Shown here: positions 2,422 to 14,046 of the stretch, piece after piece
Layout of the letters: each line of letters opens with the position of its first letter
Numbering within the stretch: the stretch's first letter is position 1
Source: Verrucomicrobiota bacterium
GTDB lineage: Bacteria; Verrucomicrobiota; Verrucomicrobiia; Opitutales; Opitutaceae
Direction of reading: 5' to 3'
DNA: 47,561 nucleotides
Assembly (NCBI GenBank): GCA_003402695.1
Contig: QQNC01000002.1
Location: forward strand, 1-47,561
Made by a program: the position numbers and the translations under genes
The notes under the pieces: generated by a model
Seen by the model: only the letters and a program-made list of their open reading frames with translations
Told to the model about the DNA's origin: nothing
Database searches by the model: none

Positions 2422-3558
2422 CTACTGCACAAAATTCAGGTCCAACGGCGCGAACACCTTCCGCCCGCTGCGCGACACAAGCGTCACCCCGCCCTTAGCC
2501 GGGACAATGCTCTTCACCGCATCGAAGCCGCGTGGGATCGCCGCCATCGCCATGATGTGCGCCACCCGCAGCGGCCGGTCGGGCCGGAGCTGCACCGCGG
2601 TCGGGCCGCCGGCGCGGGTGAGCCGGTTGGGTTTCGCCGACTCCGCCAGACCGAGATGGAAATACGCCGTCACGTCCTCGAGGCCGACGACATTGAGGTG
2701 CCGCCCGTTCCACGGTGGGTAATGGCGGCCGCCATTGGAGAACCACAGCACCGTCTCGCGCAGGACGCGCGGATTCTTCAGCGTGAAAAAAACCTGCCCC
2801 TCGCCTGGGAACGTCACGGCGTTCCACGCAAACGGCAGGCGCGCATCGCTGATCACCTCCACCAGCTCCTCAAACCCGCGGCGGGCCGGATAGCGCGTGA
2901 GGTCAATCGTGCCGCCCGCGGCCGCCGGCACGCGCTCGAGGGACGAGAACGGCGCGCCGAGCTTGAGCAGCGAGTAGCCCTTGGCCGCCGGCGTTTCCCA
3001 GGCGCCCGGCACCACAAAGCCTTTTTTAAACGCACTCATCGTGAGCGTACCGGCACCCGGCCGATCCGGGAATAGCAGCATCGGGTGCGTCCCGATCGTC
3101 ATCGGGCCGGTCATGCCGGAGAGCACATGCTCGGAATACACCGCGGCATGGCCGTCGCGCAGGATCAGCCGCTTGTCCACGCGCCCGCGGCGCACGCGAG
3201 TCTTCAGCGAGGTATGCAGGGTCGTGGTGCCGTCGGCACAGTCGAGCGACTCAAAGGTCCAGTCGCGGTTGGCGGTTTCACCGTGCGCCGGGTGCTGCTC
3301 CCCACGGTACGGCGCGGCATTGCCGCCAAAGGGCGCGCAGAAAAAGTCACCCCGGGCCACCCGCAGCATGGTCGGCATTTCGGCCGGCAGCAGCTCCTTT
3401 GCCCAGGGCGTGATGGAAAACGGCTGCACTGACTTGCGGCCCAGCTTGAACACCACCGGCGCAAGATGACCGCCCGTGCGGGTGAGAAAACCCTGCACGC
3501 GGTTGCTATTGAAACTCCAGCCGGCCTGGCCGGCCACGGACTTGATGGGGGATTTCAT
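2422..3558 (-). CDS. Aldose 1-epimerase-like (mutarotase fold) protein
   Basis: A 378-residue protein that looks like the galactose-mutarotase superfamily: a beta-rich protein with FCAPFGGNAA near the N-terminal quarter, a HGETANRDW segment, an IGTHPMLLFP strand and a late W-N-G-R-H block. I infer it acts on the sugar handled by the microcompartment operon, for example interconverting anomers of fucose or rhamnose. It is the last gene of the minus-strand cluster, 94 nt after the aldolase gene and separated from it by a large palindrome. There is no signal peptide, so it is cytoplasmic. Substrate and catalytic residues are not certain from sequence alone. Confidence 0.65.
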   Translation of the reverse strand: MKSPIKSVAGQAGWSFNSNRVQGFLTRTGGHLAPVVFKLGRKSVQPFSITPWAKELLPAEMPTMLRVARGDFFCAPFGGNAAPYRGEQHPAHGETANRDWTFESLDCADGTTTLHTSLKTRVRRGRVDKRLILRDGHAAVYSEHVLSGMTGPMTIGTHPMLLFPDRPGAGTLTMSAFKKGFVVPGAWETPAAKGYSLLKLGAPFSSLERVPAAAGGTIDLTRYPARRGFEELVEVISDARLPFAWNAVTFPGEGQVFFTLKNPRVLRETVLWFSNGGRHYPPWNGRHLNVVGLEDVTAYFHLGLAESAKPNRLTRAGGPTAVQLRPDRPLRVAHIMAMAAIPRGFDAVKSIVPAKGGVTLVSRSGRKVFAPLDLNFVQ

Positions 3559-3652: not shown

Positions 3653-4675
3653 TTACGTCTTCGGTGGCTGGCTCACCGGCGCGGCGCGGAAATCACCCGG
3701 GTCGCAGAGCTTACAGTCTTTCGTGCCGAGCCGCTGGTCGGACATTCCGAGTTTTTGGCGGATGGCGATCAGCTCCTTCAGCTTGTCCGCGCCAAACGAG
3801 TGCAGCGGGCTGCCGAGCTGCGAGGCGATCCAGACGGTGCGGCAGTAGGCGTCGATGTTCTCCATCTTCCAGTGCGCGTCCTCGACGTTGTCGCCCCATG
3901 TGATCACGCCGTGGTTCTGCATGAGGACCACCTGATGATTCACGCCCACCTCGCCGACCGCCTTGCCGTTGGCCGGCGTGCCCGGGGTTTGGTACTCCGC
4001 CATGCCAATCTCGCCCAAGAACACCTCCGCCTCGGGGATGAGACAGGAGGGCGGAATGACCGACGCCACCGCGAACGCCGTTGCGTGCACCGGGTGTGCA
4101 TGGATGCACGCGCGGGCCTTCGGCTGGCGTTTCATGATGCCGAGATGGGTCAGCGCCTCGCTCGTGCGCTTCTTCGTGCCGGCCATCTGGTTGCCGTCCA
4201 GGTCGATCAGGCACATGTCACAGGGCTTCATGAAGCCCTTCGAGATCAGCGTCGGCGTGCAGAGCACGAGGTTTTCGGCGACGCGCACGGTGATGTTGCC
4301 GCCGTTGCCGTCCACGTAGTCCTTCTCCCACATCCGCCGGCCGATGTCGCACATCTGGGCCTTGACCGCCTCAACCGCGGGGGAGGTGAAAAATTTCTGG
4401 ATCGCCGCCGGATTCTTTAGGTCGATCGACTGGCTGCAGTCGCAGGAGTGCGGAGCAGCAGAGGCGGCGGAATTCGCCGGCCTGCCGTCCGGCTTGTCCG
4501 CCATAGCCTTGGCGACAGCGGAAGCCTTGGCGAAGAAGGGCCGGGCGGGCAGCTTGCGGCTGCGCATGAGATCGCGGGCGGACGGGGTGATGATGGCGTC
4601 AGCTGGAATCGTGGCGAAGCTCTCGCCCGCACAGAGCATCCGTTCGACATCGGCGGCGGTGATGACCTTGCGCAT
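3653..4675 (-). CDS. Class II aldolase with EutQ/EutT-like N-terminal module (BMC-associated)
   Basis: A 340-residue protein. The core, about residues 95-310, is a class II aldolase/adducin domain of the fuculose/rhamnulose-phosphate type. It shows GNGGN at 123-127, the metal ligands H192 and H194 in HAHP, E215/E217, and H255 in QNHGV. Such enzymes split deoxyketose 1-phosphates into DHAP and lactaldehyde. Residues 1-45 form an extra module, VITAADVERML... then PADAIITPSARDLM, closely resembling the N-termini of EutQ and EutT and probably serving for shell attachment. The linker contains an in-frame dispersed repeat. Cys pairs flank the core (C78/C80 and C321/C324). It starts 4 nt after the last BMC-P gene. 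Confidence 0.88.
   Translation of the reverse strand: MRKVITAADVERMLCAGESFATIPADAIITPSARDLMRSRKLPARPFFAKASAVAKAMADKPDGRPANSAASAAPHSCDCSQSIDLKNPAAIQKFFTSPAVEAVKAQMCDIGRRMWEKDYVDGNGGNITVRVAENLVLCTPTLISKGFMKPCDMCLIDLDGNQMAGTKKRTSEALTHLGIMKRQPKARACIHAHPVHATAFAVASVIPPSCLIPEAEVFLGEIGMAEYQTPGTPANGKAVGEVGVNHQVVLMQNHGVITWGDNVEDAHWKMENIDAYCRTVWIASQLGSPLHSFGADKLKELIAIRQKLGMSDQRLGTKDCKLCDPGDFRAAPVSQPPKT
4493..4538. repeat. Dispersed repeat inside the aldolase reading frame
   Basis: On the coding strand this stretch holds two copies of a CTTCGCCAAGGCT-like core (one reads GTCGCCAAGGCT), followed by ATGGCGGACAAG. It encodes the Ala/Lys-rich linker at about residues 48-61 of the aldolase (FAKASAVAKAMADK). 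A related copy sits inside the BMC-P gene at 4863-4889. Its position exactly between the N-terminal module and the catalytic domain fits insertion of a repeat into a tolerant linker. Confidence 0.6.
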
Positions 4676-4679
4676 AAAT

Positions 4680-4982
4680 TTATTGGGGTGGCTGGTGGAA
4701 AATCTCGTCGGCGATGGCGGCGTTGTACGCGTCCACCGGCGTGGCCTCGGCGAATGGCTTGGAGGCCTCGGAGCCCTCGGTGAAACCGATCAGGTGGCCC
4801 AGCCCGGCGCCGAGGTTGTCGTAGACCACGAGGGTCGGGCCCGCGGTTTGGTTCTGGGACCTGCCCTCCGTAGCCTGGGCGAAGGAGGGCGCCCACGGGC
4901 GCACGAGCAGGAAACGGCCGCCCCGGTAGGACGGGTCCTGCCGGCTGAGGGTGACTTTGCCGATGACGTGGCCGAGGCGCAT
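4680..4982 (-). CDS. BMC-P shell vertex protein (EutN/CcmL family), copy 3
   Basis: A 100-residue pentameric-vertex protein. The start MRLGHVIGKVTLSRQDPSYRG and the later LVVYDNLGAGLGHLIGFTEG block are typical of the EutN/CcmL family, with the conserved D-x-L-G-A-G turn near residue 60. Such pentamers cap the corners of the microcompartment shell. I chose the ATG at 4982 because it lies 1 nt after the stop of the preceding BMC-P gene and gives family length. Residues about 31-38 (PSFAQATE) are encoded by a copy of the dispersed repeat also found in the aldolase linker, lengthening a surface loop. Confidence 0.9.
   Translation of the reverse strand: MRLGHVIGKVTLSRQDPSYRGGRFLLVRPWAPSFAQATEGRSQNQTAGPTLVVYDNLGAGLGHLIGFTEGSEASKPFAEATPVDAYNAAIADEIFHQPPQ
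4863..4889. repeat. Dispersed repeat inside a BMC-P reading frame
   Basis: On the coding strand the sequence CTTCGCCCAGGCTACGGAGG matches the core of the repeat at 4493-4538. It is read in frame and adds a PSFAQATEGR segment to the BMC-P protein. The two other BMC-P proteins of the cluster do not have this segment. Confidence 0.55.
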
Positions 4983-4983
4983 T

Positions 4984-5247
4984 TCAGGAGGAGGCGTCGA
5001 GGATCGCGATGATGGTGTTGCGGAGGGGCGATTTCGGATCGCCGACCTGGGCCCGGGCCGCCGCACCGTCGGTGGAAACCAGCACGCGCTGGTGCTGGCC
5101 GGCGCCGTGGGCATCGAGCGCGAGCACCGGCGTGCCCTCGGCGGCGCCGTGCTCGTTGAGCGGCTGGCAAATGACGGTCCGGCAGCCCCGCAAACTCGGG
5201 TGGCAAACGGTCGAAACCATCACTCCATCAACGCGGGCGAGGATCAT
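4984..5247 (-). CDS. BMC-P shell vertex protein (EutN/CcmL family), copy 2
   Basis: An 87-residue EutN/CcmL-family protein. It begins MILARVDGVMVSTVCHPSLRG, carries the LDAHGAGQHQRVLVSTDG turn expected at the pentamer interface, and ends with an NTIIAILD strand. Its length is exactly that of a single BMC-P domain. It lies between two other BMC-P genes, 6 nt after one and 1 nt before the next, so all three are translated together. Three different vertex proteins are usual for the Planctomycetes/Verrucomicrobia microcompartments. Confidence 0.9.
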   Translation of the reverse strand: MILARVDGVMVSTVCHPSLRGCRTVICQPLNEHGAAEGTPVLALDAHGAGQHQRVLVSTDGAAARAQVGDPKSPLRNTIIAILDASS

Positions 5248-5253
5248 GGGAGG

Positions 5254-5568
5254 TTATTTCGCAGCCTTGGGCTCGGGATAGATCGTGCGGTTGTTCACGT
5301 CCACGTTGTCCACGATGCCGGTGACGACGGCGTCGACGGGCACCGTGGCCATACCGGCGGCCTGGCGGGCGGAACTGCCTTGGCAGAACAGGACCGTCTC
5401 ACCTTGGCCGGCGCCGAGCGAATCGACGGCGACGATGGTGGACGGACCCGGACGAAACTGGCCGGCCTCGTCCACGAGGAGCGGGCGAAGCAGCAGGAGC
5501 TTCCGCCCCTGCAGGGCGTCGTCCTTCTGGGTCGAGACGACGGTGCCGATGACGCGTGCGAGGAGCAT
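5254..5568 (-). CDS. BMC-P shell vertex protein (EutN/CcmL family), copy 1
   Basis: A 104-residue EutN/CcmL-family pentamer protein. It begins MLLARVIGTVVSTQKDDALQG, has VDSLGAGQGETVLFCQGSSA in the middle, and finishes with VDAVVTGIVDNVDV. A short Lys-containing tail (YPEPKAAK) extends beyond the domain. It starts 4 nt downstream of the BMC-H gene stop. The paralogues differ clearly, especially around the central loop, so they may occupy different vertices or bind different partners; that is inference. Confidence 0.9.
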   Translation of the reverse strand: MLLARVIGTVVSTQKDDALQGRKLLLLRPLLVDEAGQFRPGPSTIVAVDSLGAGQGETVLFCQGSSARQAAGMATVPVDAVVTGIVDNVDVNNRTIYPEPKAAK

Positions 5569-5572
5569 GGGA

Positions 5573-5860
5573 TTATTTGGCCTTGCCGGATTTCGGCAGG
5601 ATGGATGCGACCTCGTCGTGGGGGCGCGGGATCACCTGCACGCTGACGACCTCGCCGACGGCGCGGGCCGCCTGGGCACCGGCGTCGGTGGCGGCCTTGA
5701 CCGCGGCGACGTCACCCACCACGACGGCGGAGACGAGGCCATGGCCGACCTGTTTCATGGGACCGGCGAGGGTGACGTTGGCTGACTTCAGCATGGCGTC
5801 CGTGCCAGCGACGAGGGCCGCGAGGCCCCGGGTTTCGAGCAGACCAATGGCTTTAGACAT
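5573..5860 (-). CDS. BMC-H shell hexamer protein, copy 1
   Basis: A 95-residue single BMC domain. [21 protein letters not shown] is the canonical first helix region, [21 protein letters not shown] the second half, and VIPRPHDEV the C-terminal edge. The pore loop reads QVGHG. I start at the ATG at 5860; an open frame continues upstream but would translate a polypyrimidine tract into a Ser/Pro/Leu run. No Shine-Dalgarno site precedes the ATG. Hexamers of this family tile the shell facets. Confidence 0.92.
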
Positions 5861-5987: not shown

Positions 5988-6281
5988 TTAGCCCTGCGCC
6001 GCAGCCCCAATCCATTTGCCGAGGCCGATGAGTTCGTCGTGGGGACGCGGGATGACCTGAACGCTGATGACCTCGCCGACCTTGGCCGCGGCCTCGGCGC
6101 CGGCGTCGATGGCGGCCTTCACGGCGGCGACATCGCCGCGGAAGAATGCGGTGACGTAGCCTGCGCCGATCGGCTCCCAGCCGGTCATGGTGACGCTGGC
6201 GGCCTTGAGGGCGGCGTCGGTGGCCTCGAGAAGGGCGCAGAGGCCCTTCGTTTCAATCATGCCGAGTGCTTCGTGGGACAT
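5988..6281 (-). CDS. BMC-H shell hexamer protein, copy 2
   Basis: A 97-residue single BMC domain beginning [28 protein letters not shown] in the family pattern, with pore-loop PIGAG, then [16 protein letters not shown] and [10 protein letters not shown] short tail ([10 protein letters not shown]) follows the domain. It differs from its neighbours at the pore (GAG against GHG and GGG) and after the pore strand (FFRG). This suggests hexamers with different pore chemistry. The leader is C/A-rich, built of CATCACC-like units, and has no clear Shine-Dalgarno site. Confidence 0.92.
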
Positions 6282-6322: not shown

Positions 6323-6592
6323 TTACAGCCCGACCTGCTTGAGGAGCTCGGGGTGCGGACGGGCGATGACGTGGGAGCAGACGAGCTCGCCGACGCGCTG
6401 GGCGGCGTCGGCGCCGGCGTCGACCGCGGCCTTGACGCTGCCGACGTCGCCCTTGACGACGACGGTGACAAAGCCGCCGCCGATCTGGATCTGCCGGCTG
6501 AGGGTGACGTTGGCGGCCTTAACCATGGCGTCGGTCGCCTCGATGCTGCCGACGTAGCCGCGGGTTTCTACCATTCCGATGGATTCGTTCAT
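6323..6592 (-). CDS. BMC-H shell hexamer protein, copy 3
   Basis: An 89-residue single BMC domain. It starts [20 protein letters not shown], has pore-loop [25 protein letters not shown], and ends [13 protein letters not shown]. It lies 36 nt downstream of the tandem BMC protein and 41 nt upstream of BMC-H copy 2, so all belong to one transcript. The C-terminus is the shortest of the group. Confidence 0.92.
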
Positions 6593-6628
6593 GATGTTGA
6601 TGGGTTGATTGATGCTGGGTAAATGGAC

Positions 6629-7270
6629 TCAGAGGCGGGTGAGGATCTGGCCGACGCCCTCACTGGGGCGCGGGATGACATGGGCGGAGATGAGCTTGCC
6701 GACGGCCTCGGCGGCGGCGCGGCCGGCGGCAACGGCGGCGGTGACAGCGGCGACCTCGCCCTCGAAGATCACCGTGACATAGCCACCGCCGAGTTTTTCC
6801 TTGGCGATGACGCGCACACCGGCGGCCTTGCAGGCGGCGTCGGTGGCGGCGGTGACGGCGGTGAAGCCCTGCGTTTCAAGCAAGCCGATGGCCTCGGGAA
6901 CTTTGGATTTATCACTCATAGAAACTTTCGTGGGTTGGGGGATGAAAACGACTTCCTGCTCCAGCAGCGGCTGGTACTCCGGCGGACTCTCGATCACGGA
7001 CCATGCCTCCGCATCCGGCGCGTCGAGTGCTTTCGCGGTGAGCGCAACCTTCATTTCCGTGGTGATGGCCCGCGCCGTCTCGATCGCGATCCGCACCGAG
7101 GCGGAATCGCCCGAGAGCTTGAGAAACAGCCCGTAGTAATCGTTCAGCTCCGCCTGCAGCACACGCACGAGCGCGGCCTTCTCGATCCGGTCGAGCACCA
7201 CCAGCGCGGCCCCGAGCGAGTAAACCTCGAGGAGCGCGAGTGCAGGGGGTCTGAGCGTCGGGGCGGACAT
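6629..7270 (-). CDS. Tandem BMC-domain (BMC-T-like) shell protein
   Basis: A 213-residue protein with two BMC domains. The C-terminal one, from about residue 118, is canonical: AIGLLETQGFTAVTAATDAA, pore KLGGG, FEGEVAAVTAAVAAG, VIPRPSEG. The N-terminal one is divergent but follows the pattern: ALALLEVYSLGAALVVLDRI, then NDYYGLFLKLSGDSASVRIA at the pore position and an IETARAITTEM helix. Residues about 80-115 link them. Two-domain proteins form pseudohexameric trimers, often with larger gated pores. An internal ATG (M118, position 6919) could additionally give a separate single-domain protein. The gene begins 9 nt after the isomerase stop. Confidence 0.8.
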   Translation of the reverse strand: MSAPTLRPPALALLEVYSLGAALVVLDRIEKAALVRVLQAELNDYYGLFLKLSGDSASVRIAIETARAITTEMKVALTAKALDAPDAEAWSVIESPPEYQPLLEQEVVFIPQPTKVSMSDKSKVPEAIGLLETQGFTAVTAATDAACKAAGVRVIAKEKLGGGYVTVIFEGEVAAVTAAVAAGRAAAEAVGKLISAHVIPRPSEGVGQILTRL

Positions 7271-7279
7271 CGGGCATGA

Positions 7280-8125
7280 TCAGAGCTTCGCCGCCGTCTG
7301 GCGGATCAGGTCCCGGAGCTGAATGGTTTCGGAAATGGTGTCGCTCTCGTTGCAGTGCTCCCAGTCGATCCAGATGTACTCCACGCCGATCCAGCGCTTG
7401 TAGCCGGCCTTGGCCATCGCCGCGAGCATGCGGGGGTAATCAATGGTGTTCTGCTTCAGGTTGCACTGCAGCCGGCCGCGGCAGGCGCCGCGCATGTGGA
7501 AGTGGCTGGCATGCGGCACGAGGGGCTCGATGCTGCGGTCGGAAATGCCGGCGCGCGTGAAATGCGTGTAGTCGAGCGTCAGCGTCAGGCCGGGCACGCG
7601 CCGGATCAGGTCCGCGGTTTCCTCGGGAGTCGTGACGATGGAGCCGACATGCGCCTCCGTGCCGAAGATCAAGCCGGCCGCGCGGCTTTCCTCGACGCGC
7701 CAGCCGAGTTCATCGGCGGAGCGCGCCAGCGAGGCATCCCTCCCCTCCTCCGCAAACACCACGCCCGGCAGCGTGGTCACGTGCTCGCACCCCACGGCGT
7801 CGGCGTACTCCAGCGTGCGCAGGAACCAGTCCCGCGCCTTCCGGCGCCGGGCGGCGCTGGGCTGGTTGATCGCGTAGGGCGCGAAGTCCGGCATCATCTG
7901 CAGGAACACGTCGGCGGCGACGAGGCCGCGGTCGCCCAGGGCGCGCTTCAGCTTCCGCGCGCTGGCCTTGACGTTCTTGAACTCCTTGGACGGCCAGAGA
8001 TGTGAACGCTGGTCAAACAGGCCGATGTCGACGCCGGTGAAGCCGAGGTTGGCGATCAGATCCAGCGCGTGCGGATGGCTCAGCAGCGGAAAGGTGAAGT
8101 CGGCGCAGGCGAATTTTGCTTTCAT
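7280..8125 (-). CDS. Sugar phosphate isomerase/epimerase-like TIM-barrel protein
   Basis: A 281-residue protein of the xylose-isomerase-like TIM-barrel superfamily (AP endonuclease 2 family). Supporting segments are NLGFTGVDIGLF near the start, the EAHVGSIVTTPEET block with a likely metal-ligand Glu, LTLDYTHFT with Asp and His, SHFHMRGA, and WIGVEYIWIDWEHCNE near the C-terminus. These supply the expected Glu/Asp/His metal site. The genes around it suggest it isomerises or epimerises a keto-sugar or sugar acid of the deoxy-sugar route. The exact substrate cannot be read from the sequence. It starts 6 nt after the SDR gene. Confidence 0.8.
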   Translation of the reverse strand: MKAKFACADFTFPLLSHPHALDLIANLGFTGVDIGLFDQRSHLWPSKEFKNVKASARKLKRALGDRGLVAADVFLQMMPDFAPYAINQPSAARRRKARDWFLRTLEYADAVGCEHVTTLPGVVFAEEGRDASLARSADELGWRVEESRAAGLIFGTEAHVGSIVTTPEETADLIRRVPGLTLTLDYTHFTRAGISDRSIEPLVPHASHFHMRGACRGRLQCNLKQNTIDYPRMLAAMAKAGYKRWIGVEYIWIDWEHCNESDTISETIQLRDLIRQTAAKL

Positions 8126-8131
8126 GGGGTT

Positions 8132-9052
8132 TTAGACGTTCTCCTGGAACAAGGTCGGGCCGGTGCACTGCCACTCGGCCGCCGTAAGGTAGCCGCAGTC
8201 TATCGTGAGCGACGTGCCCGTTATGCCGGCGGAATCCTCGCAGCTGAAATACCGGATCGATTTCGCCACATCGAGCGGCGAGAGCGAGACGCCCATCGGC
8301 ACGCGCTGCAGGCGCTCGGCCAGCGCCGCCTTGGGATCGGGGCGGACGTTGAGGTGCTCCCACAGCATGGGCGTTTCCGTGATGCCCGGGCACACGCAAT
8401 TGCAGCGCACGCCGTGCGCTGCGTAGTCGAGCGCGATGGAGCGGGTGAGGCCGAGGATGGCGTGTTTCGTCGTCGTGTAGACGGGGGTGCGGGCCTGGCC
8501 GACAAAGCTGCTGATCGAGCCGACGTTGACGACGTAGCCGCGCTTCGCCTTCCGCAGGTGCGGGAAGGCGTGCTTGAAGGCGAAAAACATCGATTTGACG
8601 TTCACGCCCATCACGCGGTCCCACTGGGACTCGGTGTAGGTGTGCAGGTCGCCGATCTCCACCATGCCGGCGTTGTTGACCAGGATATCGAGCCGGCCAA
8701 AGCGCTTCACTGTCGCGGCGATGGAGGCCTTCACGTCGCTCTCCAGGCTCACGTCGCAGGCCAGGGCAATCGCGGCGCCGGGCGCCGTGCGGTTGATACG
8801 GTGGGCAATGGCCTGGCCGAGTTCGATCCGGCGGCCGACGATCGCCACCTTCGCGCCCTCGCGGGCAAACAATTCCGCCGCCGCCTCGCCAATGCCGGAG
8901 GTGGCGCCGCTGATCCAGGCGACGCGACCGGCCAGCCGGCCGGTCTGAGGGAGGGCGCGACCGCTGGACGCGCTTCCGGTACGTTTGACGGATGTTTTTG
9001 GCACGCCCAGCGGGCGCGCCCTACCCTTTAAAGCTGACATATACGCCTCCAT
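8132..9052 (-). CDS. Short-chain dehydrogenase/reductase, candidate sugar 1-dehydrogenase
   Basis: A 306-residue classical SDR. The cofactor motif GATSGIGE is at 49-56, NNAG at 126-129, catalytic Ser near 181, Tyr192 and Lys196 in YTTTK. The fold normally starts about ten residues before the glycine motif; here an extra segment of about 37 residues precedes it, encoded by a REP-like palindrome. No alternative ATG lies after the repeat, so the repeat appears to be translated. In this context an L-fucose or L-rhamnose dehydrogenase is plausible, which is inference. The start region overlaps the end of the upstream dehydrogenase gene by 25 nt. Confidence 0.85.
   Translation of the reverse strand: MEAYMSALKGRARPLGVPKTSVKRTGSASSGRALPQTGRLAGRVAWISGATSGIGEAAAELFAREGAKVAIVGRRIELGQAIAHRINRTAPGAAIALACDVSLESDVKASIAATVKRFGRLDILVNNAGMVEIGDLHTYTESQWDRVMGVNVKSMFFAFKHAFPHLRKAKRGYVVNVGSISSFVGQARTPVYTTTKHAILGLTRSIALDYAAHGVRCNCVCPGITETPMLWEHLNVRPDPKAALAERLQRVPMGVSLSPLDVAKSIRYFSCEDSAGITGTSLTIDCGYLTAAEWQCTGPTLFQENV
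8952..9024. repeat. REP-like palindrome inside the SDR reading frame
   Basis: An imperfect inverted repeat with arms at about 8952-8977 and 9000-9024. The right arm reads CCCAGCGGGCGCGCCCTAC, like the arms at 3575-3651 and 10072-10199. It is translated as residues about 9-34 of the SDR, giving GRARPLGVP and SSGRALP segments that are near mirror images. Confidence 0.75.
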
Positions 9053-10068
9053 TTCTCCTGGAACGACGGCTTGGCCAGCACGTCGGGGTTAACCAGACCG
9101 CGTGGTTTCTGGCCGAGCGACAGGTCGATCATCCCCTGGCAGGCCGTGCGGCCGATGTCGCGGAACAGCTCGTGCGTCCACGCGATGCAGTGCGGCGCGA
9201 GCAGGACATTGTCCAGGTCGGCAAACCGCGAGGGCGACGTGACTGGCTCCTGCGCAAAGCAATCCAGCGCGGCACCAGCGATGCGGTTGGATTTGAGCGC
9301 GGCGTAGAGTGCGTCCTCATCCACCAGCCCGCCCCGCGCCGTGTTGAGCAGGTAGGCGCCGGGTTTCATTAGTGCGAGTTGCGCAGGGCCGACCAGGCCG
9401 CGGGTCTGCTCGGTGAGCGGGCAGTGAATGGAGACAAAATCCGCTTCCCGCAACAGCTCGTCCAGGCTCACCTTGCGCGCGCCCGCCTTGGCGGCGCCGG
9501 CATCGTCGATGAACGGGTCAAACGCCAGCGGCGGCTTCATGCCCCAGTTTTCGAGAAGTTTGATCAGGTGGCGGGCAATGCCGCCGAGGCCGATCACGCC
9601 GAGCGTGCGGTCGCGCAATTCGCGGCCCATGAAACACGAACGCACCTCCCACTCCCCGGTGCGCACGAGGCGGTCCTTCGTCCGCATGTGGTGCGTAAGG
9701 GCGATCATCCAGCCGACCGCCGCCTCGGCCACCGGGCGGTCCACGGCTCCGCTCGTGATCAACACCGCGACGTCTGCCGCCGTGCAGGCCGGCACGTCCA
9801 CGGAATCGTAACCCACGCCGAAGCGACCGACGGCCAGTAAGTCATTCGCTGAGGAAACCGATTGGGCCGTCACCTTGGGCGTGAGCACGATCACGCCGTT
9901 GGCGCCCGCGAGCTGATCGGACGAAATCTCCGGGCTGTGCCCGGCAAACGGCGACTGCTGGATGTGGGGCGCAACCGACAGCACGGACAGGCCGATGTCC
10001 TGATACTTCGGCTTCCCGGCCGCATCGAAAAAGTCGGCGGTGAACTTGAGGTTAAAGGGCGAGGGCAT
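9028..10068 (-). CDS. D-isomer-specific 2-hydroxyacid dehydrogenase
   Basis: A 346-residue NAD-dependent dehydrogenase of the phosphoglycerate dehydrogenase superfamily. It has the Rossmann motif GVIGLGGIA at about 157-165 and the catalytic trio R245 (NTARGGLVDE), E274 (CFAQEPV) and H293 (LLAPHC). I start at the ATG at 10068; upstream codons lie in a palindromic repeat. It would reduce a 2-keto acid or oxidise a 2-hydroxy acid. In this operon that could mean lactate/pyruvate chemistry or oxidation of a sugar acid. It overlaps the SDR gene by 25 nt. Confidence 0.88.
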   Translation of the reverse strand: MPSPFNLKFTADFFDAAGKPKYQDIGLSVLSVAPHIQQSPFAGHSPEISSDQLAGANGVIVLTPKVTAQSVSSANDLLAVGRFGVGYDSVDVPACTAADVAVLITSGAVDRPVAEAAVGWMIALTHHMRTKDRLVRTGEWEVRSCFMGRELRDRTLGVIGLGGIARHLIKLLENWGMKPPLAFDPFIDDAGAAKAGARKVSLDELLREADFVSIHCPLTEQTRGLVGPAQLALMKPGAYLLNTARGGLVDEDALYAALKSNRIAGAALDCFAQEPVTSPSRFADLDNVLLAPHCIAWTHELFRDIGRTACQGMIDLSLGQKPRGLVNPDVLAKPSFQEKWRRICQL

Positions 10069-10071
10069 GGT

Positions 10072-10199
10072 GGTAGGGCGCGCCCGCTGGGCGCGCCGTT
10101 TTGTGTGGGTTGCGCGCTCGCGCGCAACGTTGCCCGCGAGCGGGCAACCCACATTGGCAATCCGGCATCCCGAAGCGCGCCCCGCGGTCGCGCCCTACC
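10072..10199. repeat. Composite nested palindrome between aldolase-cupin and dehydrogenase genes
   Basis: Outer arms at about 10072-10097 and 10172-10199 carry the GGTAGGGCG...CGCCCTACC family seen twice more in this cluster. Nested inside is a second palindrome, 10104-10152, reading GTGGGTTGC at one end and GCAACCCAC at the other, with a GCGCGCTCGCGCGC centre. The whole block fills the gap between the two genes. In the transcript it would form a long multi-branched hairpin. Confidence 0.85.
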
Positions 10200-10227
10200 T
10201 CGGAAATGCGATCGGTTTTCATGGTCT

Positions 10228-11898
10228 TCACGCGCTCGGCATCGCGACGTTGGACCCGGTGGCGCAGGTCTCATCCACCACGATGCGCTCGGGCATCGGG
10301 CCGGCGTAGAACCAGATCATGCCCATCGGCGCGGGCGTCTCGTTGATGAAATAATGCACCCGGCCGCGCGGCTGCAGCGCGGTCTCGAGGTTGCCCAGCG
10401 TGTAGCGCCGGCCTTCGACGAGGCAGGTCGCGGAGCCTTCGACGATGCTGATGGATTCGTCGAAGTCGTGCAGGTGCGCCGGCAGCCGCCCACCCTGCTG
10501 GAACAGCCCGTAGCCGCCGCTCATTTCGATTCCGGGCACGAGGTCGGAGTTGCAGAAATCCACGAACGCCGCGCCGTTGCCCGGGGCGTAGCGCTCGACC
10601 TTCTTCTGGTAAGTCACGCGTTCGCCGCCGGGACGCGTCGCTGTGGCCTCCGGCATGGTGTGCTTCGGAAAAAACGTGTCCACCAACTCGCGGTCCGGCT
10701 TGGCCGAGGCCAGCGCGATGTGGAACACCGCGGGATTCGTGCGGGAGAGATTGGTGACCTTGTGCGCGAGCCCGCGCGGAACGGTGACATTGTCGAGCGG
10801 GCCGACCTCATAGCAGCGGCCCTCCACGTCGATGACGGCGCGGCCGCGCAGCAGCGTGATGGATTCGCCAAACGTGTGGCGGTGACACGGCAGCACGGCG
10901 CCCGGGGCGAAGGTCACGTAGCCGGTGGTCAGATTGCGCGCCGTATTGTGTGCGCCCACGAGGCAGTCGAACTTCACGCCGGGAGTGATATCGTACTGCG
11001 GGCCGCGGCCGGGCTGGTTCATGACCTCATTGCGGTCCGGCTTCATTTCCGGCGGAGCGCAGCTTACCGGCGTTTCGGCGGCAAGGGCGGCGGCGTTGTT
11101 CTCGAGGGTGAAAGAGGCACGCATCTGACGGTCGCGGCCGGCGACGCCGAGGGTCGTATGCAGGCTCCGGATCAGCAGGCCGGCATCGAGCCCGAGCGCG
11201 ATCGCGGCGAAACCCTGTTCCTTGCGCTTGGTGAGATTGGCGTTGTCGGTGGCGACGACGCCGCAGTGCTTACCGGCGGCGCGGAGCGCGTCCTTGGCCG
11301 AGACGATCATGTCGCCAACACCGGGACCCTCCCACTGACCGGGGAAACCGGCGGTGGAGGACAGGTCGGCGGGGCCGAAGAAATAGAGTTCCGCGCCCTT
11401 CACGGTGGCGAGCTCGGCGATATTTTTCACCGCTTGCACCGTCTCGATGATGGGGATGACCATGACGTTCTGGTCGGCCTCGCCCGTATGCTCGATGAAG
11501 CACTGGCCCCAGCACGTGGCCCGCTCGGCGCCGATGCCCCGGATGCCGCGGGGCGGATACGTCGCCGCGGCGATGGCAGCCTCGAGTTGCAGGGCGGTCT
11601 CGATCCACGGGATGACCACGCCATCGGCGCCGACATCGAGGGCGCGCTTGATCAGCGCGGGGGAGTTTTCCGCCAGGCGAACGAACACCACGGTTTCGCT
11701 GCGGACCGCAGCGCGGACGTGCTCGACGATTTCCTTCCAGTCGAGGTGGCCGTGCTCGGCGTCAATCGTCACCCAGTCGAGTCCCAGCCCGACCGCCATC
11801 TCGCAGATGCTCGGCGATTCCAGCGTGATCCAGAGTCCATACACGGGCGTACCGGACTTCATTTTCGCGCGCAGGCGCTGCAAGGCGGGGACTTTCAT
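10228..11898 (-). CDS. HpcH/HpaI (RhmA-like) aldolase fused to two cupin domains
   Basis: A 556-residue fusion. Residues 1-260 are an HpcH/HpaI class II pyruvate aldolase: catalytic H49 in DAEHG, R74 in FVRLAE, metal ligands E152 and D178 (GPADLS), and GLDAG near 236-240. RhmA-type enzymes cleave 2-keto-3-deoxy-L-rhamnonate to pyruvate and L-lactaldehyde. Two cupin domains follow. The first has the H-x-H-x3-E motif at 339-345 and H379; the second has H475, H477, E481 and H515. Both look metal-binding. The start at 11898 faces the AraC-type gene. The upstream in-frame extension is Pro/Phe-rich and unlikely to be real. Confidence 0.85.
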   Translation of the reverse strand: MKVPALQRLRAKMKSGTPVYGLWITLESPSICEMAVGLGLDWVTIDAEHGHLDWKEIVEHVRAAVRSETVVFVRLAENSPALIKRALDVGADGVVIPWIETALQLEAAIAAATYPPRGIRGIGAERATCWGQCFIEHTGEADQNVMVIPIIETVQAVKNIAELATVKGAELYFFGPADLSSTAGFPGQWEGPGVGDMIVSAKDALRAAGKHCGVVATDNANLTKRKEQGFAAIALGLDAGLLIRSLHTTLGVAGRDRQMRASFTLENNAAALAAETPVSCAPPEMKPDRNEVMNQPGRGPQYDITPGVKFDCLVGAHNTARNLTTGYVTFAPGAVLPCHRHTFGESITLLRGRAVIDVEGRCYEVGPLDNVTVPRGLAHKVTNLSRTNPAVFHIALASAKPDRELVDTFFPKHTMPEATATRPGGERVTYQKKVERYAPGNGAAFVDFCNSDLVPGIEMSGGYGLFQQGGRLPAHLHDFDESISIVEGSATCLVEGRRYTLGNLETALQPRGRVHYFINETPAPMGMIWFYAGPMPERIVVDETCATGSNVAMPSA

Positions 11899-11976
11899 GA
11901 AAACAAAAAAGGGAAAGGGACAACGGACCGGGGCTGGAGGGCGGCCTGACACTAGCGGATTGCCAGCTTCGGTGAC
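11899..11976. promoter_or_regulatory. Divergent promoter region between regulator and microcompartment operon
   Basis: This 78-nt gap separates the start codons of the aldolase-cupin gene (minus strand) and the AraC-type regulator (plus strand). It must hold at least part of both promoters. An A/G-rich tract (AAAACAAAAAAGGGAAAGGG) lies next to the aldolase start. I cannot identify clear -35/-10 boxes or the paired half-sites an AraC-type protein would bind. The arrangement itself supports control of the operon by this regulator. Confidence 0.5.
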
Positions 11977-12927
11977 ATGGACAGTCTGAGCGTTTACCTA
12001 GGTTTTTTGAGCGCCCACCCCTTGAGCGACGCCCCCAAAAGTTTTCACCGCTACCTGCTGGTCGACTCGAAAGATCGCGACTGGGGCATCTATGCCACCT
12101 CGGCGGGCTACGTGGACATTGCGCCCGGTGCGCCCTACCCGCCCGAGGGCCACCCGAAGCAGTATACGTTCCGCTGGGAAGACGGCCGCAAGCTGGACGA
12201 GCTGCAGATCCACTTCATCACGCGCGGCGGCGGCGTGCTGGAATCGGGGAAAGAAGGCGGGCGTCGGCAGAAAATCACGGCGGGCAGCGCATTTTTACTG
12301 TTTCCGGGAGAGTGGCACCGCTACGCGCCGCAGAAGCAGACCGGCTGGTTTGAATATTGGATCGGATTGAAGGGCGAATACGTCGAGCGGCTCTTGGCGA
12401 GGCACTTTTTCACTCCGGGACACCCGGTGTTTGCACCGTCGGACAGCAGTGCGCTGCTGCGGCTGTTCACCGAGGCGGTGGGCTGTCTGCGTCACCATTC
12501 GACGGGCGCGTCCCGCGTGCTGGGATCGCTCGCGGGGCAAATTCTGGCCGAGTTATCCACGGGTGCCGTGGCCGCGCCCCCCGCCGCGACGCGCACAGAG
12601 CACCTCGTGCACGAGGCCAAGCTGATGCTCGGCCAGCATCTCGAGCAGGAGTTGGACCTGGAATTACTCTCCAAAAAAATCGGTGCGGGCTACCACTGGC
12701 TGCGGCGGGCGTTCAAGTCGGAGACGGGCCAGTCGCTCCACCAATACCGGCTGCAGGTCCGGCTCAGCCGGGCCAAGCTGCTACTGAAGAACTCGGATCT
12801 CCCCGTGGAGCAGGTGGCGCTGCAGACGGGTTTCCAGGATCCGTATTATTTCTCCCAGATCTTCAAGCAGAAGACCGGCGTGACCCCCACCAGCTGGCGC
12901 AAGGGGGATACGGCGCTGATGACCTAG
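11977..12927 (+). CDS. AraC-family transcriptional regulator
   Basis: A 316-residue regulator. The N-terminal half is a cupin-like sensor domain, with ITAGSAFLLFPGEWHRYAPQ forming the typical beta-barrel end and EYWIGLKG following. The C-terminal 100 residues hold two helix-turn-helix units: LELLSKKIGAGYHWLRRAFK, then VEQVALQTGFQDPYYFSQIF with the KTGVTPTSWRK end, the AraC signature. Its position opposite the microcompartment operon and before the fucosidase-like gene suggests it senses the sugar and activates both. The effector sugar is not visible in the sequence. Confidence 0.92.
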   Translation: MDSLSVYLGFLSAHPLSDAPKSFHRYLLVDSKDRDWGIYATSAGYVDIAPGAPYPPEGHPKQYTFRWEDGRKLDELQIHFITRGGGVLESGKEGGRRQKITAGSAFLLFPGEWHRYAPQKQTGWFEYWIGLKGEYVERLLARHFFTPGHPVFAPSDSSALLRLFTEAVGCLRHHSTGASRVLGSLAGQILAELSTGAVAAPPAATRTEHLVHEAKLMLGQHLEQELDLELLSKKIGAGYHWLRRAFKSETGQSLHQYRLQVRLSRAKLLLKNSDLPVEQVALQTGFQDPYYFSQIFKQKTGVTPTSWRKGDTALMT

Positions 12928-12930
12928 TGA

Positions 12931-12972
12931 TTGTCAGCGCGAGGACGGCGACTCCGGACCTCGCAATGACAA
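12931..12972. repeat. Inverted repeat after the AraC-type gene
   Basis: TTGTCA and GCGAGG on the left are mirrored by CCTCGC and TGACAA on the right, forming a hairpin 3 nt after the regulator stop codon. There is no T-run after it, so intrinsic termination is doubtful. It belongs to none of the other repeat families in the window. Confidence 0.75.
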
Positions 12973-13050
12973 ACGGCGGCATCAGCAATCCCGCGCTACA
13001 TTCACGGAAATTCGCGTGATTCACGGGCCGTCTCTGGTAAACAGGAGCCC

Positions 13051-14046
13051 GTGAGCACCCCTCCGGCCTCGACGCCTTGGAAGCGCGCCAACACCGATTG
13101 GCTCCATGACGCCCGCTGGGGGATGTTCGTCCACTACCTCGCCGACTCGGCCAGCAACCTGAAGCCGATCACGCTGACGGCCGACGACTGGAACCGGCGC
13201 ATCGACGCGTTCGACGTCGATGGGCTGGCCAAACAGCTGGCCTACGCCCGCGTGCCCTATTTCTGCATCACGCTCGGCCAGAATTCCGGGTTCTACCTCA
13301 GCCCCAACAGCACCTACGACACGATCGTCGGGCTCAAGCCGAGCAAGTGCTCGAAACGCGACCTGATCGCCGACCTCGCGTCGGCGTTCAAACCCTACGG
13401 CATCCGGCTGATGGTCTATCTCCCCGGCGGCGCGCCCGCCGCCGACGCCGTGGCGAAGGCCAGGCTGGAGGAGCCCGTGGACGGGCGGCTCTCGACGATC
13501 CAGGAGCACTGGGAAGCCGTCAGCCGCGAGTGGTCGCTACGCTGGGGCAAAAACGTGCACGGCTGGTGGATCGACGGTCCCTACAACAAGGAAGCCTACT
13601 CGCATCCCGACGCGCCCAACTACCGCAGCTTCGCGTCGGCGCTGAAGGCCGGCAACCCCGACTCCCTCGTGGCGTTCAACAACGGCCTGCGATTGCCGCT
13701 CTATTCGGTCACCGAGTGCGACGACTTCACCCCCGGCGAGATCGAGCGCGACCTGCCGGTGGCACCAGGCTGTCTGCCGGACTACTCGCTTCTTTCGAAT
13801 TTCGGCCGCTACCTCGACGGCGCGCAGTTGCACGTGCTCACGATCATGGGCGAGTGGTGGGGCAAGCACCCGAAGCGTTTCGACGACGAGCTCGTCATCG
13901 CCTACACAAAATATTTCAACCGCAAGGGCGGCGTGATCTCGTGGGACGCCCCGATCCAGGTGAGCGGGCTGATGGACGAAGCCTTCCGCCCGCAGATCGA
14001 GGCGCTCGGACATGCGATCAGGGCGGCAAAAGCCCAAGGTTACTGA
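13051..14046 (+). CDS. Alpha-L-fucosidase-like (GH29-type) protein
   Basis: A 331-residue protein resembling the catalytic barrel of GH29 alpha-L-fucosidases. The ARWGMFVHY motif near residue 21 corresponds to the family N-terminal signature. FCITLGQNSGFYLSPN and GIRLMVYLPGG are barrel strands, and GWWIDGPYN places D175 at the nucleophile position. The start is a GTG preceded by ACAGGAG, one of the few clear Shine-Dalgarno sites here. It lacks a signal peptide and any C-terminal beta domain, so it may act in the cytoplasm on imported fucosides. The acid/base residue is not identifiable. Other functions of the barrel are possible. Confidence 0.7.
   Translation: MSTPPASTPWKRANTDWLHDARWGMFVHYLADSASNLKPITLTADDWNRRIDAFDVDGLAKQLAYARVPYFCITLGQNSGFYLSPNSTYDTIVGLKPSKCSKRDLIADLASAFKPYGIRLMVYLPGGAPAADAVAKARLEEPVDGRLSTIQEHWEAVSREWSLRWGKNVHGWWIDGPYNKEAYSHPDAPNYRSFASALKAGNPDSLVAFNNGLRLPLYSVTECDDFTPGEIERDLPVAPGCLPDYSLLSNFGRYLDGAQLHVLTIMGEWWGKHPKRFDDELVIAYTKYFNRKGGVISWDAPIQVSGLMDEAFRPQIEALGHAIRAAKAQGY

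Follow-up and report, generated by a model that had tools for sequence, protein, structure and literature searches.

What does a protein that joins a pyruvate aldolase to two cupins do, and what do the genes around it say about its pathway? The question is raised by an open reading frame (ORF) in a 47,561-nucleotide stretch of Opitutaceae DNA, hereafter the window. The original prediction had placed a pyruvate aldolase and two cupins at 10228–11898; these coordinates are exact, and the Pfam calls agree. The genes considered here are, from the flanking plus-strand genes through the minus-strand gene run:

13051..14046, plus strand: alpha-L-fucosidase-like protein (Pfam 24.4 bits against a cut-off of 25.2, below cut-off)
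11977..12927, plus strand: divergent AraC-family regulator (Pfam HTH_18, AraC_binding)
10228..11898, minus strand: the fusion, HpcH/HpaI pyruvate aldolase (~residues 1–265), linker and bicupin (~286–556), from Pfam, alignment and model
9028..10152, minus strand: D-isomer 2-hydroxyacid dehydrogenase, HADH (Pfam 2-Hacid_dh_C, 190.1 bits)
8132..9052, minus strand: SDR oxidoreductase (Pfam adh_short_C2, 193.3 bits)
7280..8125, minus strand: AP_endonuc_2/xylose-isomerase-like TIM-barrel protein, SPI (Pfam, 94 bits)
6629..7270, minus strand: two-domain BMC shell protein, 213 aa (Pfam BMC, two stretches)
6323..6592, minus strand: BMC-H shell protein 3 (PF00936, 93.7 bits)
5988..6281, minus strand: BMC-H shell protein 2 (PF00936, 95.6 bits)
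5573..5860, minus strand: BMC-H shell protein 1 (PF00936, 77.8 bits)
5254..5568, minus strand: BMC-P (EutN/CcmL-like) protein 3 (ORF with homologues in related loci, named by eye)
4984..5247, minus strand: BMC-P protein 2 (same basis)
4680..4991, minus strand: BMC-P protein 1 (same basis)
3653..4675, minus strand: class II aldolase (AldII), FucA-like, lacking a C-terminal EP-like tail (PF00596, 153.1 bits)
2422..3558, minus strand: uncharacterised protein, 378 aa (ORF after the operon)

Architecture and distribution of the aldolase–bicupin fusion

The fusion gene runs from an ATG at 11898 to a stop codon ending at 10228 and encodes 556 residues. An alternative GTG start lies upstream at 11952; homology with relatives begins at the ATG, and some relatives use GTG at the position of the window's ATG (e.g., L046). 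Pfam assigns residues 38–262 of the longer ORF to HpcH_HpaI (PF03328, 114.1 bits against a cut-off of 25) and two further stretches to Cupin_2 (74.4 bits against 27.2). A 695-aa ORF overlapping the gene on the opposite, plus strand (9862–11949) is taken for a GC-rich shadow ORF. In the window's own genome, the fusion is the sole match at E 0.001 or better.

The solved aldolases nearest to the N-terminal half are HpaI, GarL, and YfaU, and HpaI is also the nearest NCBIfam family. With these class II pyruvate aldolases (YfaU corresponding to RhmA), the fusion has in common the HpcH_HpaI domain, the aligned catalytic His and Arg, and the metal-binding Glu and Asp. Unlike HpaI, GarL, and RhmA, it bears a bicupin and falls short of all three equivalog cut-offs by a wide margin (HpaI 178.1 bits against 368.8, GarL 143.4 against 406.75, RhmA 122.3 against 441). 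In an alignment of 39 full-length fusion proteins, with a mean column identity of 74% and some rows that are near-copies, aldolase residues D46, E48, H49, R74, D88, E152, and D178 are identical in 39/39, as are H339/H341/E345/H379 of cupin 1 and H475/H477/E481/H515 of cupin 2. From the alignment with solved relatives, we take H49 and R74 to be the catalytic His and Arg and E152 and D178 to be the metal ligands. Both parts of the protein thus keep the catalytic and metal-binding residues, all eight cupin ligands included, that had been predicted to be intact.

A pattern scan of GTDB contigs, which detects close relatives only, returned 39 loci as a lower bound: 37 full-length fusions and two aldolase-only loci, all titled Verrucomicrobiota or Planctomycetota. 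The fusion is a real, conserved architecture present in two phyla, and its distribution is sporadic. Full-length fusions occur in 3/177 genomes of the order to which the window belongs (its own genome among them) and in 4/392 Planctomycetota genomes (centre genome counted; threshold E 1e-50, scoring limited to three candidates per genome), which bears out the expectation that the architecture is rare. One planctomycete order holds nine full-length matches in 45 genomes, a sample centred on a fusion-bearing genome, and four of the nine are two adjacent genes. A named strain, Aquisphaera insulae JC669 (L048), carries the fusion. An assembly error was considered and ruled out, since 37 of the 39 loci come from different species records, each with one open frame. 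The titles of two MAGs, L047 and L043 (Akkermansia muciniphila and Candidatus Kuenenia), look doubtful, because the L043 sequence barely differs from rows of Planctomycetaceae/Planctomycetales and the partner of L047 is L058, titled Verrucomicrobia. The literature searched on HpcH, cupins, 2-keto-3-deoxy-fuconate, and Verrucomicrobia or Opitutaceae microcompartments contains no description of an aldolase–cupin fusion, nor does it show one as a common element of well-described pathways.

A conserved cassette with split and partial versions

Three enzyme genes follow the fusion. The solved relatives of HADH are phosphoglycerate dehydrogenase and glyoxylate reductase, and the alignment of its relatives suggests a start at an internal ATG near 10068. 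The N-terminal 38 residues of the SDR are poorly conserved and its start is uncertain, while the named relatives of SPI are all weak. Among 40 fused loci, some of which end at contig edges, 31 contain HADH, which in 30 is the gene next after the fusion; it was not seen in nine, one of them truncated by a contig end. Within the flanks covered, SDR was found in 22 of these loci and SPI in 20, and HADH, SDR, and SPI all lie within 5 kb of the fusion on the same strand in 18/40. Beside planctomycete fusions, PSD1/PSCyt, DUF1501, SMP-30 lactonase, and GntR-like genes (by eye) form neighbour clusters, each in at most seven loci, as delineated by a rough ORF method that includes shadow ORFs, with PSCyt scanned in one locus. 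In L034, PSD1/PSCyt and DUF1501 proteins adjoin the fusion (6460–9945 and 11948–13540), and DUF1501-like genes lie near seven loci.

The two halves also occur apart. In four planctomycete genomes (L114–L117), aldolase and bicupin are separate neighbouring genes with one in-frame stop between them, in the order ALD-BICUPIN-HADH-SDR-SPI; at the two junctions that were read, an ATG lies three bases past the stop. HADH-SDR-SPI accompany an aldolase with no bicupin in L057, L106, and L110. Conversely, a bicupin with no aldolase is found with HADH-SDR-SPI in L103 and with HADH in L105; L112, where the contig end cuts at the bicupin, is left out of this count. A diverged copy of the missing half lies elsewhere in four genomes (bicupin in G199 and G222, aldolase in G231 and G217), and a close bicupin is not among the listed matches in G215, G064, and G048, which have aldolase-only loci. 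A quick-method aldolase tree, with an unresolved base and very long outgroup branches, gathers the four adjacent-gene rows into one clade (98*) and groups the aldolase-only L106 and L058 with fused rows (99*), so the bicupin was likely lost in these two lineages. The halves being joined in some loci and split in others speaks for a single pathway served by both, rather than for a mutual need in every case.

A predicted microcompartment operon with an apparently missing aldehyde-processing core

Downstream of the cassette, the shell genes and the class II aldolase continue on the same strand as one gene run in the window. Judged from this gene order, the cassette stands at the head of a predicted microcompartment operon that also encodes a class II aldolase. 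The original prediction did not include this context.

Fusion-bearing Opitutaceae display two layouts. In layout A, that of the window, the shell genes and class II aldolase lie in the cassette's gene run, and the whole block recurs in seven loci (the window, L025, L027, L030, L032, L033, and L078); L021 and L022, cut by contig ends, are placed in layout A from their remaining genes. In layout B, a canonical PVM (Planctomycetes/Verrucomicrobia) locus lies elsewhere, and the cassette (L023, L024, L028, L029, L031, and L041) retains the two-domain shell gene only, which stays with the cassette where the other shell genes are elsewhere. In genome G066 (L077), this canonical locus encodes PduL, acetate kinase, aldehyde dehydrogenase, lactate/malate dehydrogenase, and a DeoR regulator; the first three of these recur in 6/6 layout B loci. 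The two layouts are interleaved in the fusion tree. The 378-aa protein, which has no Pfam match, is present in the window, L025, L027, L032, and L033 (layout A) and in L023, L024, L031, and L041 (layout B), and absent at L028, L029, and L078. In four layout B loci (e.g., L023 14389–16236), its gene comes immediately after that of the two-domain shell protein, an arrangement that looks as if the block of three BMC-H genes, three BMC-P genes, and the class II aldolase had been excised or inserted there.

The co-occurrence of shell genes with the cassette was also considered. Shell genes are found in 31/32 genomes with a fusion or aldolase-only locus, a count dropped as evidence because 41/45 genomes of one planctomycete order have shell genes anyway. 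In the window's order, shell genes occur in 72/177 genomes and in 3/3 with the fusion, three being too few. In one genome with the fusion (G208, L026), searches for BMC, PduL, and a close match to the aldehyde dehydrogenase came back empty, and ten regions around two-domain shell genes outside Opitutaceae (L082–L091, from nine planctomycete genomes and G200) contained no cassette.

The solved relatives of the window's class II aldolase are L-fuculose-phosphate aldolases. The seven layout A class II aldolases form one clade (100*), apart from six layout B enzymes and seven canonical ones hand-picked from other Opitutales. A C-terminal encapsulation-peptide-like tail, which we take to mark PVM aldolases, is, by eye, missing in 6/7 layout A enzymes, the window's included, and present in 13/13 canonical ones; L077, L093–L095, L126, and L127 can be compared in this respect with window 3653–4675. 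By a strict rule, three positions only separate the layout A enzymes from the rest, and the presumed active-site regions look alike across all class II aldolases compared, so a changed substrate is not indicated. The fusion, HADH, SDR, and SPI carry no tail, by eye, like that of the class II aldolase, which leaves encapsulation of the cassette enzymes unsupported.

The main difference between the layouts concerns the aldehyde-processing enzymes. PduL is part of the common core of catabolic microcompartments. It was detected (PF06130) in 6 of 16 genomes, comprising 6/6 of layout B and 0/9 of layout A. With the G066 aldehyde dehydrogenase as query, 72–100% matches were obtained in 6/6 layout B genomes, the query's own included, whereas matches outside layout B reached only 20–27% (21–24% in the window genome, G000), and the other eight layout A genomes had no close match to this BMC-type enzyme. 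The scan of window genes at the locus revealed neither a DeoR regulator nor an acetate kinase. The window genome, in 330 contigs, is rated 92% complete, and the others are mostly MAGs; in layout A genome G035, a single contig rated 100% complete, PduL and the BMC aldehyde dehydrogenase were likewise not found. As the fusion was the route by which all layout A genomes were identified, the association between cassette and missing core is no independent test of a link.

Axen 2014 (PMC4207490) describes catabolic microcompartments as having core chemistry in common, a core aldehyde dehydrogenase included. The layout A shell may be repurposed, or it may be in the course of being lost. An unlikely but more far-reaching reading is that layout A represents a separate type of microcompartment that has neither an acylating aldehyde dehydrogenase nor PduL, and in which the fusion cassette would take over the aldehyde chemistry. 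Here, lactaldehyde from the class II aldolase would be disposed of without acyl-CoA by the HpcH half (acting with pyruvate in one direction or the other), bicupin, SDR, and HADH. A shell locus that retains the signature aldolase, with neither the core aldehyde dehydrogenase nor PduL found in nine genomes, would put the dispensability of the core to the test.

Comparison with described systems places the window close to PVM microcompartments, with which it shares BMC-H and BMC-P-like proteins and a class II aldolase (PF00596) next to the shell genes. It differs from them in that the 92%-complete assembly shows no PduL or BMC-type aldehyde dehydrogenase, an AraC regulator rather than a DeoR regulator stands alongside, and the class II aldolase tail is absent. 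The ACI microcompartment of Acidobacteria, as presented in the main text of PMC8217296, likewise has a class II aldolase, a hydroxyacid dehydrogenase, and a BMC-P triplet; in contrast to the window, its aldehyde dehydrogenase is encoded at a satellite locus and its aldolase bears a C-terminal EP, and a word search of that main text finds no mention of a cupin. A complete 'PVM-like' locus is reported from an Opitutaceae-affiliated isolate in PMC12388122. The main texts of the microcompartment literature searched describe no PVM locus lacking aldehyde dehydrogenase, although the layout may be in the tables of the 2021 catalogue; neither such a locus nor the fusion appears in the portions covered of PMC8217296, PMC8857213, PMC4207490, PMC5615132, PMC13274419, PMC12388122, and PMC8636102. 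The system is a variant of known enzyme kinds, and its setting is more surprising than the original prediction stated.

Predicted chemistry and substrate of the cassette

An AlphaFold2 model of the bicupin half has a pLDDT of 93.5; the full-length model is weaker (pLDDT 84.0, pTM 0.55). The best structural match of the bicupin model is YxaG of B. subtilis (Z 25.9, rmsd 2.5, 250 aligned residues), followed by oxalate decarboxylases (Z 24.8–24.9), and the fold matches further include YlbA (DUF861) and BacB, the bacilysin enzyme. The predicted fold contains two 3-His-1-Glu sites, a motif that we take to be a signature of quercetinase and oxalate decarboxylase bicupins. The window bicupin resembles YxaG-type quercetin 2,3-dioxygenase and oxalate decarboxylase in having two cupins with HxH...E...H in each. 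It differs in sitting behind an aldolase and in being just 11–16% identical to its structural matches. As modelled, the fold by itself would accommodate a dioxygenase, decarboxylase, isomerase, or dehydratase.

Our preferred overall explanation, tentative and with somewhat less than an even chance of being right, is that the fusion is a bifunctional enzyme of a conserved cassette degrading a sugar or sugar acid. The N-terminal half would carry out metal-dependent cleavage of a 2-keto acid to pyruvate (or hydroxypyruvate) and a short aldehyde, perhaps lactaldehyde. The bicupin may catalyse a neighbouring step on an anionic keto acid, a weaker assignment than the aldolase step; most likely this would be an enolisation, such as an isomerisation or dehydration, that yields the substrate of the aldolase. 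SDR and HADH would provide the redox steps, and the two aldolases, the fusion half and the class II enzyme, probably serve one substrate family. The invariant residues, the gene order, HADH behind 30/40 fusions, and the adjacent unfused genes favour this explanation; the aldolase-only genomes G215, G064, and G048 and the nine of 40 fused loci with HADH missing count against it. An isomerase step is further disfavoured by the closest folds being dioxygenases and decarboxylases rather than isomerases.

These folds bring forward the alternative that the bicupin is an O2-using dioxygenase or decarboxylase of the quercetinase or oxalate decarboxylase kind, breaking a keto acid or enediol beside the aldolase step. 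Both metal sites are complete, YxaG, itself a bicupin dioxygenase, is the nearest fold ahead of oxalate decarboxylase, and a profile search also retrieves YxaG (E 9.5e-09, over one cupin only). We nevertheless regard this as rather unlikely: the cupin fold does not fix function, as YlbA and BacB among the matches illustrate, the identity is low, and the scanned loci contain no recurrent oxygen-dependent neighbour, with one PhyH gene (in L049). That the halves are operon neighbours joined by loss of a stop codon, in a pairing devoid of functional meaning, would fit the four genomes in which the two genes lie in frame across a single stop; the fused state in two phyla, and in 37/39 scan loci, makes this improbable. 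We give about as little weight, if anything slightly less, to the bicupin being a non-catalytic domain for sensing or assembly, through which the aldolase would be regulated or oligomerised. The aldolase-only loci L057, L106, and L110, which retain the rest of the cassette, would agree with such a role, but none of the eight metal ligands varies, nor do many other residues, and bicupins lacking an aldolase stay near cassette genes (HADH-SDR-SPI in L103, HADH in L105). Under the preferred reading of a bifunctional sugar-degrading enzyme, the fusion points to two enzymes probably acting in sequence, and hence to an uncharacterised pathway that is directly assayable.

A deoxy-sugar is a plausible best guess for the substrate on circumstantial sequence evidence, namely the FucA-like enzyme in the microcompartment, the fucosidase-like gene, and the AraC-type regulator. 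The product of 13051–14046 matches a solved alpha-L-fucosidase (9pnj, E 1.2e-13); its gene lies beyond the regulator and stands beside the fusion in the window and close relatives only. A link of PVM shells with fucose and rhamnose is described in PMC8217296, PMC4207490, and PMC5615132. Counting against a deoxy-sugar, few genomes of either layout have a typical fucose or rhamnose isomerase: L-fucose isomerase (PF07881) exceeds the cut-off in 0/16 genomes, with weak matches in five, and L-rhamnose isomerase (PF06134) in 1/16. The proposed cooperation of cupin and aldolase gains from the adjacent unfused genes in four genomes; its deoxy-sugar part remains circumstantial, and 2-keto-3-deoxy-rhamnonate and -fuconate are candidate substrates at most. 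No sugar-acid dehydratase is among the window genes scanned. In G035, a gene for an IlvD/Edd-family dehydratase adjoins the operon on the other strand (L078 7341–9149); this enzyme could supply a 2-keto-3-deoxy acid, or it could be unrelated.
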